From a virus, in IMG/VR virus record IMGVR_UViG_3300008113_000292, positions 1 to 31,542 of that record: a stretch of DNA of 31,542 bases. One strand, written 5' to 3'. Positions 2,750 through 31,542 of this stretch are shown here, piece after piece; within the stretch, counting starts at the first letter, position 1, and each line of letters starts with the position of its first letter. The notes under the pieces were generated by a model. That model searched no databases. It saw nothing but the letters and a program-made list of their open reading frames with translations, and was not told the DNA's origin. The translations under genes were made by a program, and so were the position numbers.

Positions 2750-3082
2750 CTAGTTGTGGTGAAAAGTTCTGATGTATTCTGCAATGATTTCAAACTGTTC
2801 GTCATACCAGACCATCCATCCATCACCATAAGAAAAAAGAATGCGGCTCTTATTCAAGTGAAAATCGATTGTAAGTTTGGCTCCGATCTTGGTTGCCGCA
2901 ACACACAACCTGTTTAGTCCGTCTACATACTCTTCAATGTTTTCTGCAGTGCAGTAATACTTTGCACGACCTTCTACAAGTTTGCGATCATTTGCTAGTC
3001 GTTGCTTGCGCTCTTCTTCTCTCTTCTCAGCGTCTGCTGCAAAACCTGCAAATATTTCCTCTACCGTTTTTATTGTTTCCAT
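2750..3082 (-). CDS. Hypothetical protein, 110 aa, single-gene early-type unit
   Basis: I do not recognise this protein. Residues about 5-40 are highly charged and helical (AEKREEERKQRLANDRK), likely a coiled coil. The C-terminal half looks like a small alpha/beta domain rich in aromatic residues (FSYGDGWMVWYDEQFEI). It has its own sigma-70-like promoter at 3112-3140 and its own terminator at 2711-2740. It therefore sits as an independent cassette between the large terminase and portal genes, a spot where phages often carry accessory genes. The ATG at 3082 is preceded by AGGGAAATAGAGAG, a reasonable ribosome binding site. A function in host takeover or defence evasion is possible but unsupported. 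Confidence 0.75.
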   Translation of the reverse strand: METIKTVEEIFAGFAADAEKREEERKQRLANDRKLVEGRAKYYCTAENIEEYVDGLNRLCVAATKIGAKLTIDFHLNKSRILFSYGDGWMVWYDEQFEIIAEYIRTFHHN

Positions 3083-3159: not shown

Positions 3160-4341
3160 TCAGACAGCACCCCAGCTCTTGCGCTGTCCGATCACCTGCC
3201 AAGCGTATGCCATCGCGTCCACTACGTCATCATGCCGACCAACGGGGAAGGATAACAACTCATCCTGCCAGTAAGGTGGCAGACCTTCAACGTGTACAAC
3301 CTGCCCTTGCTCGTACCGGGCTTCTAAAGGCCCAAAGCGGGTTATCTTGTCACGGTCTGGACGTATCCCCCGTATCGGCAGTTTTGTACGTCTCATAAGC
3401 TCTTGCACAACAGCCGCCTGATACTGCACCTGCTCAATGCCAATCATGACGGGTTTCCACTTTTCAGCCATCATCTCGATGAACCGCAGGACGGAAGCAA
3501 AGTCCGCCCTTGTCCTGTTGACATCAAGCACGTAGATCGTGCCATCATCACCACGGCTCAGAGCTACCACGGCGGTGTAGTCTGCTTCCGCCTTGGTAGA
3601 TATCGCAAGGTCAACACCAAGGTAGACCGGCAAGCCTTCAGGAGCATCCCCAAACCTCAACCATTCCCGCTTGATTCTTGCTCCAGCAGCATCGACGAAC
3701 TCCGCCAAATACTCCTGTCGAAACGCGATCGAGGGCAAAGATTCCCCCGCCTTGGCTACTTCGTCAGCATCTATCCACGGGTTAGCCGTTGTCGGCATCT
3801 GCCATGCCATCCAGTCCGGATCTACACCAGCCATAGCATGAAGGCTTTTGAAGTAGTTCGAGCCTTTAGGCGTAGAGAGAAAGAAAGCATCTCCCCGGTA
3901 ATCGGTTAGCGTTGGTCTAATTGCCTCTGTCCAGGCTTGTTCTAGATGCCTTGCCATGGCGGCTTCGTCAATGATGACTCGTTTGTACTTACGCCCACGG
4001 GCAACGGTTGAAGGGTCGTCCAGCGTCCAGTAATCGATTGCTGCCCCGGTTATGAGTTCGATGCGCGGGGCAGGTGTCTGCACAGCTCGCCTGATGACAG
4101 GAGCGTATATCCGCTTATGGTCGTTGTACGCTTCCTCAAGGAGCCTGTAGGTAGGCGCAAACCAAGCGCAAGGCAAACCATCTTTCAGTACCGGATCGGA
4201 TAGCAGATTCCCACCTAAGGTGGTTTTCCCGAATCTTCGATCTACTCAGCCACAGGCGAGAACGTTATAGCGTCTCGCCTGTGCCATGATTACCTTTTGT
4301 CCTTCGTGTGGTCGAGGGAGAACCAATCGAATGTCAGGCAT
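3160..4341 (-). CDS. Terminase large subunit, interrupted by an in-frame TGA (4246-4248)
   Basis: The packaging motor. ATPase part: Walker A RRFGKTT directly after the interruption, Walker B KRVIIDEAA, and the FLSTPKG coupling motif. Nuclease part: YLGVDLAIS with DYTAVV, IGIEQVQYQ and HDDVVDAMAYA supply the acidic metal ligands. The frame opens at ATG 4341, overlapping the dUTPase stop by 8 nt, and reads MPDIRLVLPRPHEGQKVIMA..NVLACG, then TGA-GTA-GAT, then RRFGKTT. Related terminases commonly run from NV.ACG straight into RR.GKTT, so nine extra bases (stop-Val-Asp) appear to have been inserted. A TTG at about 4176 would give only a product lacking Walker A. The rest of the gene is intact. Either the sequence is a variant or error, or the stop is bypassed in some way; as written the motor would not be made. 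Confidence 0.9.
4251..4283. repeat. Perfect 11-bp inverted repeat in the 5' end of the terminase gene
   Basis: CACAGGCGAGA (4251-4261) and TCTCGCCTGTG (4273-4283) flank an 11-base loop. In the mRNA the stem ends 2 nt before the in-frame TGA of the large terminase gene. It lies in codons for AQARRYNVLAC, so part of it is constrained by coding. Confidence 0.8.
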
Positions 4342-10989: not shown

Positions 10990-11344
10990 CATCGAAAGTA
11001 AAGCCAACATGATCGGCTATTGCCTTGGCAGCATCATGCCAAGAGTAAGCCACAAAGAACTTGTACCCGTGTGGCTCCAAGGCTTCGCGGAATGACACCT
11101 GTCCCGGTGTTAGCCTGCCCTTACCTGCCTTCATCTCGATGTAGAGCCCCGGTAAAGGGGCAGGGAGGAAGATATCCCAGACGCCGGCACGGACACCCAT
11201 GGCCTTAAACTTTGCAGCTGTGCGAATGTCACGGTGTCCACCGTTAGGGCAGTGGTAGATGGTTGATAACTCAGGGTGTTTGGATTCCATCAGCCGCACC
11301 CAAGTAATCAAGGCTATCTGCTCTCGGTCTTCAAGATGTCTCAT
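10985..11344 (-). CDS. VRR-NUC domain nuclease
   Basis: 119 residues, one domain. YHCPNGGHRDIRTAAKFKAMGVRAGVWDIFLP followed by GLYIEMKAGKGRLTPGQ is the VRR-NUC pattern, with the PD-(D/E)xK residues visible as Asp57, Glu70 and Lys72. Stand-alone phage members of this family are structure-specific or Holliday-junction-type nucleases. Here it is likely to resolve branched DNA before packaging or during recombination promoted by the Erf-like protein. The start overlaps the end of the sigma factor gene by 14 nt. Confidence 0.92.
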   Translation of the reverse strand: MRHLEDREQIALITWVRLMESKHPELSTIYHCPNGGHRDIRTAAKFKAMGVRAGVWDIFLPAPLPGLYIEMKAGKGRLTPGQVSFREALEPHGYKFFVAYSWHDAAKAIADHVGFTFDV

Positions 11345-12152
11345 GTATCTGCCTCAGTTCTGCCAGTGCCTTTTGTATGCGCTCTTTGACCACCACGGGC
11401 GGTATACGGTAACGGCTGGCTACCATGTGGATGGTCTGTGGTACTCTGCCATCAAGCCCAAGGTGTAGGGCTATCATCTGCCTTGTCTCATCGTCCATCT
11501 TGCCAAGGGCTTCGGTCAAGGTTCCCTCCTCGGCTTCACCGAAATAGACATCTTCCGCTGATGGCGTTGATCCGAATACCGCAGTATCCGCCAAGACTAG
11601 CTCAGAGCCTTGTACCGGGGTTTCTATAGACATCGGCTCAATACCTGCTGCGGTACGGCAGATGTCGATAGTTTCGAGACTCATCCCGCTACGCTCGGAC
11701 AACTCTACATCTGTGGGTGGTCGCTTCAACTCCAACTCAAGAATGACGTAATGCCGCTTTAGTTTGTGCCACTTGACCAAGGTATGCTCGGCAATCCGGA
11801 TGGTTCTGTATTGGTTGCTTTGGTATCGCCTGAGCTTCTGGTAAATCCAAGGATGAGCGTAAGTTGAGAACCTCAATCCTCGCTCTGGTTCCCACTTTTC
11901 GATTGCCCTAATCAAGCCCTCAACGCAGTACTGGCAAGCATCTACAAAATGCTCCTTGTGCTTGATGACCTTGCATACCTCGCGGATGAATGCGAAGTTG
12001 TGGCGGATCATAGCTTCTAGGCACTCGTCGGCATGGATGCCATGCGACCAGCCGTAGTGCAGGAGAATCATTTCATCTGGCAAGAGTAAACGCTCCGGAG
12101 CCTTACTCAAAGCCCGGAGCGTCTGCCGTATTATGCTTGGCTTTACCTGCAA
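11331..12152 (-). CDS. Sigma-70 family RNA polymerase sigma factor
   Basis: About 273 residues from TTG 12152. Region 2 is clear: YCVEGLIRAIEKWEPERGLRFSTYAHPWIYQKLRRYQ holds the core-binding and -10 recognition helices. Region 3 follows (PPTDVELSERSGMSLETIDIC), then a linker and a region-4 helix-turn-helix (DDETRQMIALHLGLDG ... TIHMVASRYRIPPVVVKERIQKALAEL). All parts of a group 2/3-like sigma are there without region 1.1. The start is uncertain: TTG 12152 overlaps the methyltransferase stop and has AGGA 7 nt upstream, while the frame is open further upstream. It most likely directs host RNA polymerase to phage late promoters, for which the TGTGGGATACT motif is the best candidate. Confidence 0.92.
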   Translation of the reverse strand: MQVKPSIIRQTLRALSKAPERLLLPDEMILLHYGWSHGIHADECLEAMIRHNFAFIREVCKVIKHKEHFVDACQYCVEGLIRAIEKWEPERGLRFSTYAHPWIYQKLRRYQSNQYRTIRIAEHTLVKWHKLKRHYVILELELKRPPTDVELSERSGMSLETIDICRTAAGIEPMSIETPVQGSELVLADTAVFGSTPSAEDVYFGEAEEGTLTEALGKMDDETRQMIALHLGLDGRVPQTIHMVASRYRIPPVVVKERIQKALAELRQIHETS

Positions 12153-13294
12153 GCCTGTATCCTGGACCCTATCCAACGCATGACGGGTACAGCCATGCTG
12201 TTGCCTAGTGCCTTGTATCGTGGCCCGTCTGGCGTGGTTGGGAGTATATCTGTCCAACCATCCGGGAACCCTTGCAAGCGTTCACACTCGGTCGGTGTTA
12301 GCCTTCGTACTGCCATGCCGTGTAATACAGATGTTTGTTGATGTGCTTGCAGTTGTGGATATTCCCGTAGATCAATGCCGCGCATATCACCACCTGATTG
12401 ATGATTGAACGCTTGTGCTATCCATTGGTCTTGTGTGGTTGATAATGTAAACACCTTTTCATCTGTGCCTAGATATCCTTTGCCACCACCTTCGCAACCA
12501 CCACGTATCTTGAATGCATGGGCTGGATGCGCTACACCGTGAACCCCGGTGGCGTTGAGCGTGTACATTGGACCACCTACCGTGTATCCATCACCATTAC
12601 CGCCGTTCATTGGTTGCCGTCCGATGGTGTTCTCTGCAATGGCTACAGGAATCAAGGTTTCTGTGTTTGGGTCGTACCTGCAACCAGTGCCTGTCGTAAG
12701 GCATTGGGCAGTGTCTTGCCCCGTTTTTCTGCTCTTCGGAGAATCCCCTCGCAAGCTTTCTGGCTCAAATAATACTTCGGCTGCACGTCTGCTGTCCCCT
12801 GAAGAATGTGCGACAACAAAGACTCTACGCCTTCGCTGTGGCACTCCAAAGTACTGAGCGTCAAGCACTCGGTAGGCGAACCCATACCCGAGTTGCCCCA
12901 ACGCCCCGAGGAAGGAACCAAAGTCCCGTCCTCCTGAGCTGGACAGAACGCCGGGCACGTTTTCCCAGATAACCCATTCTGGGCGGTAGTGGTCAACCAT
13001 ACCAAGGAAGATGAGGGCAAGGTTTCCTCTTGGGTCTTCAAGCCCCTTGCGGAGTCCTGCAACGCTGAAGGACTGGCAGGGAGTCCCTCCAACAATAAGG
13101 TCAACTGCGTTTCGATCAATGTCCCAGTCCTTGTACTTTGTCATGTCTCCAAGGTTTGGCACTCCTGGAAAGTGATGTGCCAACACCTGAGACGGGAAGC
13201 GTTCAATCTCTGCAAAGGCTACGGGAGTCCAGCCTAAGGACTCCCATGCAACCGATGCAGCTTCGATGCCACTGCATACGCTTAGGTATCTCAT
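12143..13294 (-). CDS. DNA cytosine-C5 methyltransferase
   Basis: 383 residues with all main motifs in order: SVCSGIEAASVAWESLG (I, SAM binding, 5-21), GGTPCQSFSVAG with catalytic Cys73 (IV), ENVPGV (VI, 111-116), AQYFGVPQRRRRVFVVA (VIII), a variable target-recognition region (about 175-325), RRLTPTECERLQGFPDGW (IX) and GNSMAVPVM (X). It transfers a methyl group to cytosine C5. No restriction enzyme is encoded beside it, so it is an orphan enzyme, most likely protecting phage DNA from host restriction. The target site cannot be read from sequence. The start overlaps the stop of the upstream gene frame in ATGA fashion (13291-13294). Confidence 0.97.
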   Translation of the reverse strand: MRYLSVCSGIEAASVAWESLGWTPVAFAEIERFPSQVLAHHFPGVPNLGDMTKYKDWDIDRNAVDLIVGGTPCQSFSVAGLRKGLEDPRGNLALIFLGMVDHYRPEWVIWENVPGVLSSSGGRDFGSFLGALGQLGYGFAYRVLDAQYFGVPQRRRRVFVVAHSSGDSRRAAEVLFEPESLRGDSPKSRKTGQDTAQCLTTGTGCRYDPNTETLIPVAIAENTIGRQPMNGGNGDGYTVGGPMYTLNATGVHGVAHPAHAFKIRGGCEGGGKGYLGTDEKVFTLSTTQDQWIAQAFNHQSGGDMRGIDLREYPQLQAHQQTSVLHGMAVRRLTPTECERLQGFPDGWTDILPTTPDGPRYKALGNSMAVPVMRWIGSRIQACR

Positions 13295-23991: not shown

Positions 23992-24426
23992 CTACGACCA
24001 AGCGGTGGATACTCCGTTAGCACCAAGGGTGACTGTAGCGGATTCGGTTACGGCTTCCTCATTTGCAACACTTAGACCAGTAGCGGTAACAACACCAACA
24101 AAGGTCTTAGCGGTAAGGCTTCCCGGTGTCACTACGATCTGGCAGTAGTAACCATCCTTGCCGTAGAAGATTGGACCGACAACCGAATCAACCAGAAACT
24201 CGACTTCAACGCTACCATTTGCCTTGGTAACCTGTGCTTTGTTCTGAGTATCGCAGAGTGCGCTAACATCAACGCTATTTACCGATGTTGAGAAGCGAAC
24301 GGAACGAGCAATACAGGTATAAGTCTCAGCGGTAAAGGCTGAAGGCGTACCATCTTGGTAGCCACCGAAAGCCACGGTCACAACACAGTTTTCACCGATA
24401 AGCGCACTTGTTCTTGTAAAAGGCAT
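23992..24426 (-). CDS. Major tail (tube) protein
   Basis: 144 residues, all-beta character (NCVVTVAFGGY, TYTCIARSVRFSTSV, GSVEVEFLVDSVVGPIFYG, YYCQIVVTPGS, GVSTAWS). Size and place between the tail terminator gene and the tail chaperone fit the tube protein, which stacks in rings to form the tail. ATG 24426 has a good TAGGAG ribosome binding site 6 nt upstream, one of the clearest in the late region, as expected for an abundant protein. No sequence motif proves it. Confidence 0.8.
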   Translation of the reverse strand: MPFTRTSALIGENCVVTVAFGGYQDGTPSAFTAETYTCIARSVRFSTSVNSVDVSALCDTQNKAQVTKANGSVEVEFLVDSVVGPIFYGKDGYYCQIVVTPGSLTAKTFVGVVTATGLSVANEEAVTESATVTLGANGVSTAWS

Positions 24427-24435
24427 AATTTACTC

Positions 24436-24915
24436 CTACTGTTGCGTGACGAATCGGTACACCGCTGTCACTCCAAAATCAGTTCGACCACCGCTCTCTA
24501 AACCAAATGTTTGAGCTGTTGATTCTCTCCGGCAATAGAACCTGGGAGAGGTACTCGAAACGTGCTGATTGTCAAGCAATGTGTCTATGCGGGACATGAT
24601 CGCAGCACTCTGTGACATGGACACCGCACCACTTGCAGTATCCCACACGGTGATTCTGTAGGTCGGATAAGTAAAGACCCGGCTACCGCAAATGGTGTCT
24701 TGGTCTTGCCCTGCATTACCTGCACGGTCAAAGACAATGTAAGGTGTTATAGGTTGCTTTCGGCTGATTGGGTCTACTTGTGGGGCAATGGTGTTGTACA
24801 CGGACATCTGGAAGCCGTTAGGCTTATTGTCAGGAGCAAGCAATCCCATCAAGGTGGCATCACCTGTCAGGGTTTCGTAGATCCATTGCTCAATCACGGC
24901 TGGTTCAAATGCCAT
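24436..24915 (-). CDS. Tail terminator / completion protein (DUF3168-like)
   Basis: 159 residues. An N-terminal helix (AVIEQWIYETLTGDATLMGLLA), then PYIVFDRAGN, TYRITVWDTAS, a helix with IMSRIDTLLDN and a final strand TDFGVTAVYRFVTQQ: this is the layout of tail completion proteins, which cap the tail tube at the head end. It follows the gp10-like gene with adjoining stop and start. The codons for TVWDTAS contain a full copy of the late 11-mer TGTGGGATACT (24647-24637), about 210 nt before the tail tube ATG. Confidence 0.72.
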   Translation of the reverse strand: MAFEPAVIEQWIYETLTGDATLMGLLAPDNKPNGFQMSVYNTIAPQVDPISRKQPITPYIVFDRAGNAGQDQDTICGSRVFTYPTYRITVWDTASGAVSMSQSAAIMSRIDTLLDNQHVSSTSPRFYCRRESTAQTFGLESGGRTDFGVTAVYRFVTQQ

Positions 24916-31482: not shown

Positions 31483-31542
31483 CTATATAAGCTTACGTAG
31501 AGGTCGTACACGGGTATTAGGCCCCCAGTCTTGGTTAGGTAC
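31483..31542 (-). CDS. 3' end of the minor head protein gene, continued from position 1
   Basis: If position 1 joins 31542, the minor head frame reads on from MYMEGKP into VPNQDWGPNTRVRPLRKLI and stops at TAG 31485-31483. The phase is exact at the junction (the last codon before the edge is bases 3-1, the next is 31542-31540). Nineteen further residues is a normal length for the end of this family, and the gene then ends just before the next promoter. Confidence 0.82.
   Translation of the reverse strand, partial: VPNQDWGPNTRVRPLRKLI

Follow-up and report, generated by a model that had tools for sequence, protein, structure and literature searches.

The window analysed here is the whole of an IMG/VR virus record (31,542 bases), and it carries the large terminase gene (terL) on the minus strand, between the dUTPase and portal genes. 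The gene starts with the ATG at 4341-4339 and reads MPDIRLVLPRPHEGQKVIMAQARRYNVLACG up to an in-frame TGA; the bases GTA-GAT follow, and the CGA at 4239 then opens RRFGKTT. On re-reading, the coordinates that the initial annotation gave for the stop (4246-4248, after NVLACG) were exact, and the remaining terL frame was undamaged as it had reported, being open from 4239 until the TGA at 3160. The 11-bp perfect stem-loop described there was confirmed as well; it has an 11-nt loop, ends 2 nt 5' of the TGA, and has a fold energy of -21 kcal/mol (z -7.2). This arrangement of insert and hairpin is not a matter of chance. The features of the locus are listed below.

4246..4341, minus strand: 5' reading frame of terL, 31 codons plus TGA, compared with 80 relatives
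4273..4283, minus strand: 5' arm of the hairpin, 11 bp, CACAGGCGAGA
4251..4261, minus strand: 3' arm of the hairpin, TCTCGCCTGTG, its final G also being base 1 of the take-off codon
4249..4251, minus strand: take-off codon GGC (Gly31)
4246..4248, minus strand: in-frame stop codon TGA
4243..4245, minus strand: remaining bases of the skipped gap, GTA (L166 has GAA, L047 and L080 have GTGTA, and L251 and L252 have AY)
4240..4242, minus strand: landing codon position, GAT in the window virus and GGT or GGC in every other insert-bearing lineage
3160..4239, minus strand: 3' reading frame of terL (large terminase) from the Walker A arginines, RRFGKTT..., 359 aa plus stop

Elsewhere in the window, a gene for a sigma-70 region 2 protein overlaps a cytosine-5 DNA methyltransferase gene (11331-13294), and a 110-aa gene without a family match lies between terL and the portal gene (2750-3082), a slot that is filled by other small genes in relatives. 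A contig of the same virus (L003/L084) joins position 1 of the window to position 31542, the two ends being separated in it by about 21 bases, which indicates that the window is a nearly complete genome with a circular map.

Two other assemblies of the window virus, from other metagenomes (L003/L084 and L004/L160), were 99.9% identical to it over 8-9 kb and had identical bases at the insert, and about 88 terminase contigs, drawn from 72 metagenome datasets, showed the arrangement of stop, gap, and hairpin. A consensus error or assembly artefact, which had been considered at first, is contradicted by this agreement. Among the 80 closest terminase relatives, nearly half carried the insert and the others had none. 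It was located at one codon boundary throughout, where insert-free relatives encode NVLACG and RRFGKTT unbroken; the view that nine extra bases separate two normally adjacent halves was thus borne out. A scan for the hairpin pattern matched 86 DNA stretches, and a scan for a stop before Walker A, with the hairpin not required, gave 89 matches; all true terminase stop-inserts among the fetched matches of the second scan bore the hairpin. Matches to GCCTGTGGCTGAGNAGG outside terL had no hairpin and lay in a different frame, a wider TGC scan returned only chance matches beyond L251 and L252, and L162-L165 and L253 were false matches in other frames. The element had no match in INPHARED or PLSDB, and the bacterial genomes searched yielded four distant terminases, all without the insert. 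Additionally, one contig (L124:30-62) contained a hairpin identical to that of the insert-bearing class and no stop insert; the site is near the contig start, and the contig would be a recombinant or an assembly chimera.

The take-off codon was GGC in all 72 full-length insert-bearing sequences of the main set and GGT in L251 and L252, so that every insert-bearing locus reads GGC-TGA or GGT-TGA, whereas insert-free relatives had GGG, GGT, GGC, or GGA at this position. After TGAGTA, we found GGT in 64 distinct contexts, GGC in four, and GAT in one, the window lineage; L166 has TGAGAA-GGC. The hop length, usually 9 nt, was 11 nt in two contigs (L047 and L080, TGAGTGTA-GGT) and 8 nt in two very divergent terminases (L251 and L252, GGT-TGAAY-GGC), whose ATPase parts are about 50% identical to that of the window and to each other. 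GGC and GGU are both decoded by tRNA-Gly with anticodon GCC, and re-pairing from the first GGY to the second brings back the frame in all cases but one, the window lineage with its GAT. As the 8- and 11-nt steps are out of frame, only re-pairing of the peptidyl-tRNA-Gly would restore the protein there.

A landing codon matching the same peptidyl-tRNA is therefore present in every lineage but that of the window, and is absent in the window taken alone. The GAT found in the three assemblies of the window lineage is mismatched to tRNA-Gly(GCC) at its middle base, suggesting that the hop there may be weaker or rely on loose pairing, and its efficiency may be low. Judging by its title, a study of T4 reportedly concluded that minimal peptidyl-tRNA:mRNA pairing can suffice for landing.

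The two divergent loci have peculiarities of their own. L251 contains two successive terminase N-termini (2852-3079), of which the native one is broken at NVL and the second comes with an ATG, a hairpin, and an 8-nt hop of its own. This looks like the insertion of an entire 5' block at the Walker A boundary, or like a chimeric assembly. In L252, a second terminase frame break near 3340, within the ATPase domain, is probably an indel error. With a doubled N-terminus in one and an unrelated frame break in the other, each locus is weak evidence alone, although the gap lengths of both agree.

The hairpin is conserved as a structure. Each of the 73 insert-bearing sequences in the main set formed all 11 stem pairs, compared with a mean of 5.9 of 11 in 47 insert-free sequences. 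Nine distinct hairpins had compensatory changes on both sides at three of the 11 pairs with no pair broken, and no shuffle attained the observed covariation score of the stem. The hairpin of L251 differs in sequence, with a 10-bp stem and a shorter loop. Synonymous variation was near zero in the stem codons, normal in the loop codons, and like that of relatives in the downstream codons; over the 30 codons after landing it was normal (1.30 versus 1.35 bits) and gave no sign of conserved 3' structure, which argues against a conserved 3' stem-loop. As regards a possible nascent-peptide signal of the T4 type, the peptide AQARR(Y/F)NVLACG is conserved as well, but this is confounded with the hairpin, which is formed by the same bases.

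Downstream of the gap, TerL was intact in 72 of 73 sequences, and the remaining one runs off its contig. The median dN/dS of this part was 0.063 in insert-bearing and 0.048 in insert-free sequences, indicating strong purifying selection. The two contigs with the 11-nt step, both out of frame, share just 80% of their downstream bases (dN 0.088, dS 1.12). This divergence with low dN indicates that selection for the protein acted on the out-of-frame version while it persisted or spread.

Based on these comparative sequence data, the terL element is very probably, across the family, a programmed translational bypass resembling that of T4 gene 60; a programmed stop bypass had been one option in the initial annotation, and comparison with relatives strongly supports it. 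In the proposed mechanism, the ribosome would translate the 5' frame up to the glycine codon (GGC, tRNA-Gly anticodon GCC), with UGA entering the A site, then release the codon and shift forward by 8-11 nt. The peptidyl-tRNA-Gly would re-pair with the next GGU or GGC and decoding would restart at the Walker A arginine codon, yielding an uninterrupted ...ACG-RRFGKTT, exactly the protein of insert-free relatives. While GGC occupies the P site, the 3' arm of the hairpin lies within the ribosome. As the ribosome loosens, the hairpin 5' of the take-off codon could refold, drawing mRNA from the exit channel and thereby driving the ribosome onward. Both the hop itself and this motor role are inferred, the latter being assigned by analogy with the 5' stem-loop of T4 gene 60, for which refolding behind the ribosome is modelled to pull the mRNA and drive forward movement (PMC5009743, PMC11194080).

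The block is also mobile. In a tree of the terminase past the gap (quick method), insert states were intermixed, with 21 changes, at least 15 of them forced by well-supported branches. The second frame of L114 is 97% identical to those of insert-free L168-L171, and the 5' end of L166 is closest to insert-free L188-L189; in both, the block sits between flanks matching their own kin. We propose that the hairpin-stop-gap block passes from one phage to another when they recombine at the Walker A site. The insert-bearing and insert-free classes were not separated by the genes lying around terL on its own strand. In relatives (for example L109, L065, L045, L058, and L134), the TerS-TerL interval is a hot spot of exchangeable cargo, which by sequence appearance includes DNA methyltransferases and GTP cyclohydrolase-, QueE-, and formyltransferase-like proteins; such cargo occurs in phages with the insert as well as in those lacking it.

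An antisense HNH_3 endonuclease gene (Pfam, E about 1e-9) was identified at one exact place beside the terL start in eight distinct insert loci. It was found in eight of 70 insert loci and none of the 106 insert-free loci with enough upstream sequence (Fisher p 0.0005, in a post hoc test uncorrected for kinship on loci partly picked by the hairpin). Among the eight loci, the stretch that begins with the HNH gene and ends at the take-off codon was mostly 80-100% identical (95-100% in the closest pairs), and identity dropped to about 70-85% within the first codons past landing, with L166 comparisons lower throughout. This profile is the one left by a conversion tract that stops where the DNA was cut, close to Walker A, and the best reading is that a homing endonuclease accompanies the bypass block in at least some cases. 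The earlier idea that the Walker A site draws mobile DNA accordingly holds in that an HNH gene abuts terL in these loci, but not in the form of an intron or intein scar. HNH PF01844 and GIY-YIG nucleases were found in 0 of 20 records. A second HNH_3 endonuclease, dissimilar to the terL-adjacent one, was located away from terL in the L089 record (24386-24517).

We consider it fairly probable, from these sequence patterns, that the HNH gene drives, or drove, the spread of the block. Spread would then occur by homing, and the block would probably render its site resistant to cleavage, as proposed for the T4 mobA/bypass cassette; the cleavage by HNH and the resistance of the site are both putative. 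The T4 cassette is mobile, and the T4 gene 60 bypass with its adjacent HNH gene mobA was reportedly described by Bonocora et al. in PNAS in 2011. The models used found no HNH gene in the window, which would make the window a derived state, and the gene is absent from most insert loci. Alternatively, the bypass is real and the block spreads by ordinary phage recombination alone, with the HNH gene as a passenger. This is possible but on balance unlikely: 62 of 70 insert loci are without the gene and relatives exchange the 5' ends of terL by recombination anyway, whereas its restriction to one exact place in insert loci only, and an HNH-to-take-off identity well above that of flanking terL, point to a more active part.

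Explanations that do without bypassing fared worse. Readthrough of the UGA by a suppressor or near-cognate tRNA would give ACG-X-V-G-RRFGKTT, and it would agree with an insert that is a multiple of three in most members and with the glycine codon that still precedes RR. However, downstream TerL is conserved in the 11- and 8-nt variants even though their steps are out of frame, so readthrough is unable to serve them. The GTA, changed to GAA in L166, otherwise lacks the synonymous variation that translation as a codon would lead one to expect. Of the 32 listed window genes, 18 (terL included) end in TGA, and no tRNA gene was found within the window; a recoded TGA was rejected on these two grounds as well. 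We therefore regard readthrough as very improbable.

Removal of the extra bases from the RNA, by a tiny intron or hairpin-guided processing, would restore every gap-length variant too and would be compatible with the conserved hairpin. Nevertheless, we know of no machinery that removes 8-11 nt from bacterial mRNA, Rfam gave no match to an intron, and neither a stop straight after the glycine codon nor synonymous GGT and GGC landing codons are expected for splicing, which makes this reading highly unlikely.

It is scarcely credible that terL is a split gene in these viruses, made by reinitiation after the stop or else defective. Reinitiation could be imagined in L252, where a TTG overlaps the TGA of that locus in the TerL frame. 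Members of the main family have no in-frame start until at least seven codons past the initial R of RRFGKTT, which is already downstream of the Walker lysine, so reinitiation cannot yield Walker A there. Intact reading frames and purifying selection also contradict a defective gene or genome, the latter having been another of the initial suggestions. Finally, a group I or II intron or an intein was rejected for an insert of just 8-11 nt, for which Rfam gave only sub-threshold FourU and sR35, and the intron or intein scar favoured initially is wrong in that form, given that conservation extends to hairpin, take-off codon, and gap together as a working unit.

Taken together, programmed bypassing in terL would extend a very small group of cases. 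To our knowledge, T4 gene 60 was for decades the sole well-established programmed bypass of a phage or bacterium. Shorter-distance counterparts have long been presumed to exist, according to a review (PMC5009743). We lean slightly towards the view that phage terminase genes harbour a widespread family of minimal bypass elements, for which two glycine codons and a single upstream hairpin would suffice, the hop is variable in length, and the block is mobile together with an HNH endonuclease cutting at Walker A. Dozens of natural variants in gap length, hairpin, and landing codon within an essential enzyme, along with insert-free controls, make the minimal signal for a ribosome hop directly testable. 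The results also suggest that gene finders miscall insert-bearing terminases as truncated. The association with HNH genes would be the second link between bypass and homing endonucleases, after T4, and if true, the two cases together would make bypass a general route for homing endonucleases into essential coding sequence.

Other systems resemble the terL element in part. In the mitochondria of Magnusiomyces capitatus, 81 byp elements have been reported (PMC5009743, PMC4592705); they are likewise short inserts in essential genes that are corrected by bypass and thought to be mobile, whereas the terL element has a bacterial-type ribosome, an obligatory hairpin, and one gene only. Stop-hops are known from synthetic constructs (PMC5009743), compared with which the terL hop is natural, usually one codon longer, and accompanied by a conserved hairpin. 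Another case in a terminase gene shares the short gap, but it hinges on a rare UUA codon with possible regulation, in contrast to the stop codon, hairpin, and mobile block described here.

The closest counterpart is T4 gene 60, whose bypassing has been reviewed (PMC3014915, PMC5009743, PMC11194080). Both systems have a glycine take-off codon with a stop directly after it, a glycine landing codon decoded by the same tRNA (except for the GAT of the window lineage), a 5' stem-loop upstream of take-off, and the possibility of out-of-frame joining, and in some terL members an HNH endonuclease gene lies alongside, as in T4. The hop is 8-11 nt in terL and 50 nt in gene 60, the stop is UGA rather than UAG, the glycine codons are GGC/GGU rather than GGA, the 5' frame has 31 rather than 46 codons, and the gene encodes a terminase instead of a topoisomerase. 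The A-site take-off stem-loop of the T4 type is absent from terL, since a gap of 5-8 nt leaves no room for it, and the 3' stem-loop with which the second frame opens in T4 has no conserved counterpart; these two absences set the terL element apart from that of gene 60. Moreover, it occurs in dozens of phages, whereas gene 60 has been described as unique (PMC3014915). These comparisons indicate that the terL element would work like T4 gene 60 bypassing with a much shorter gap, and that the two are not the same element.
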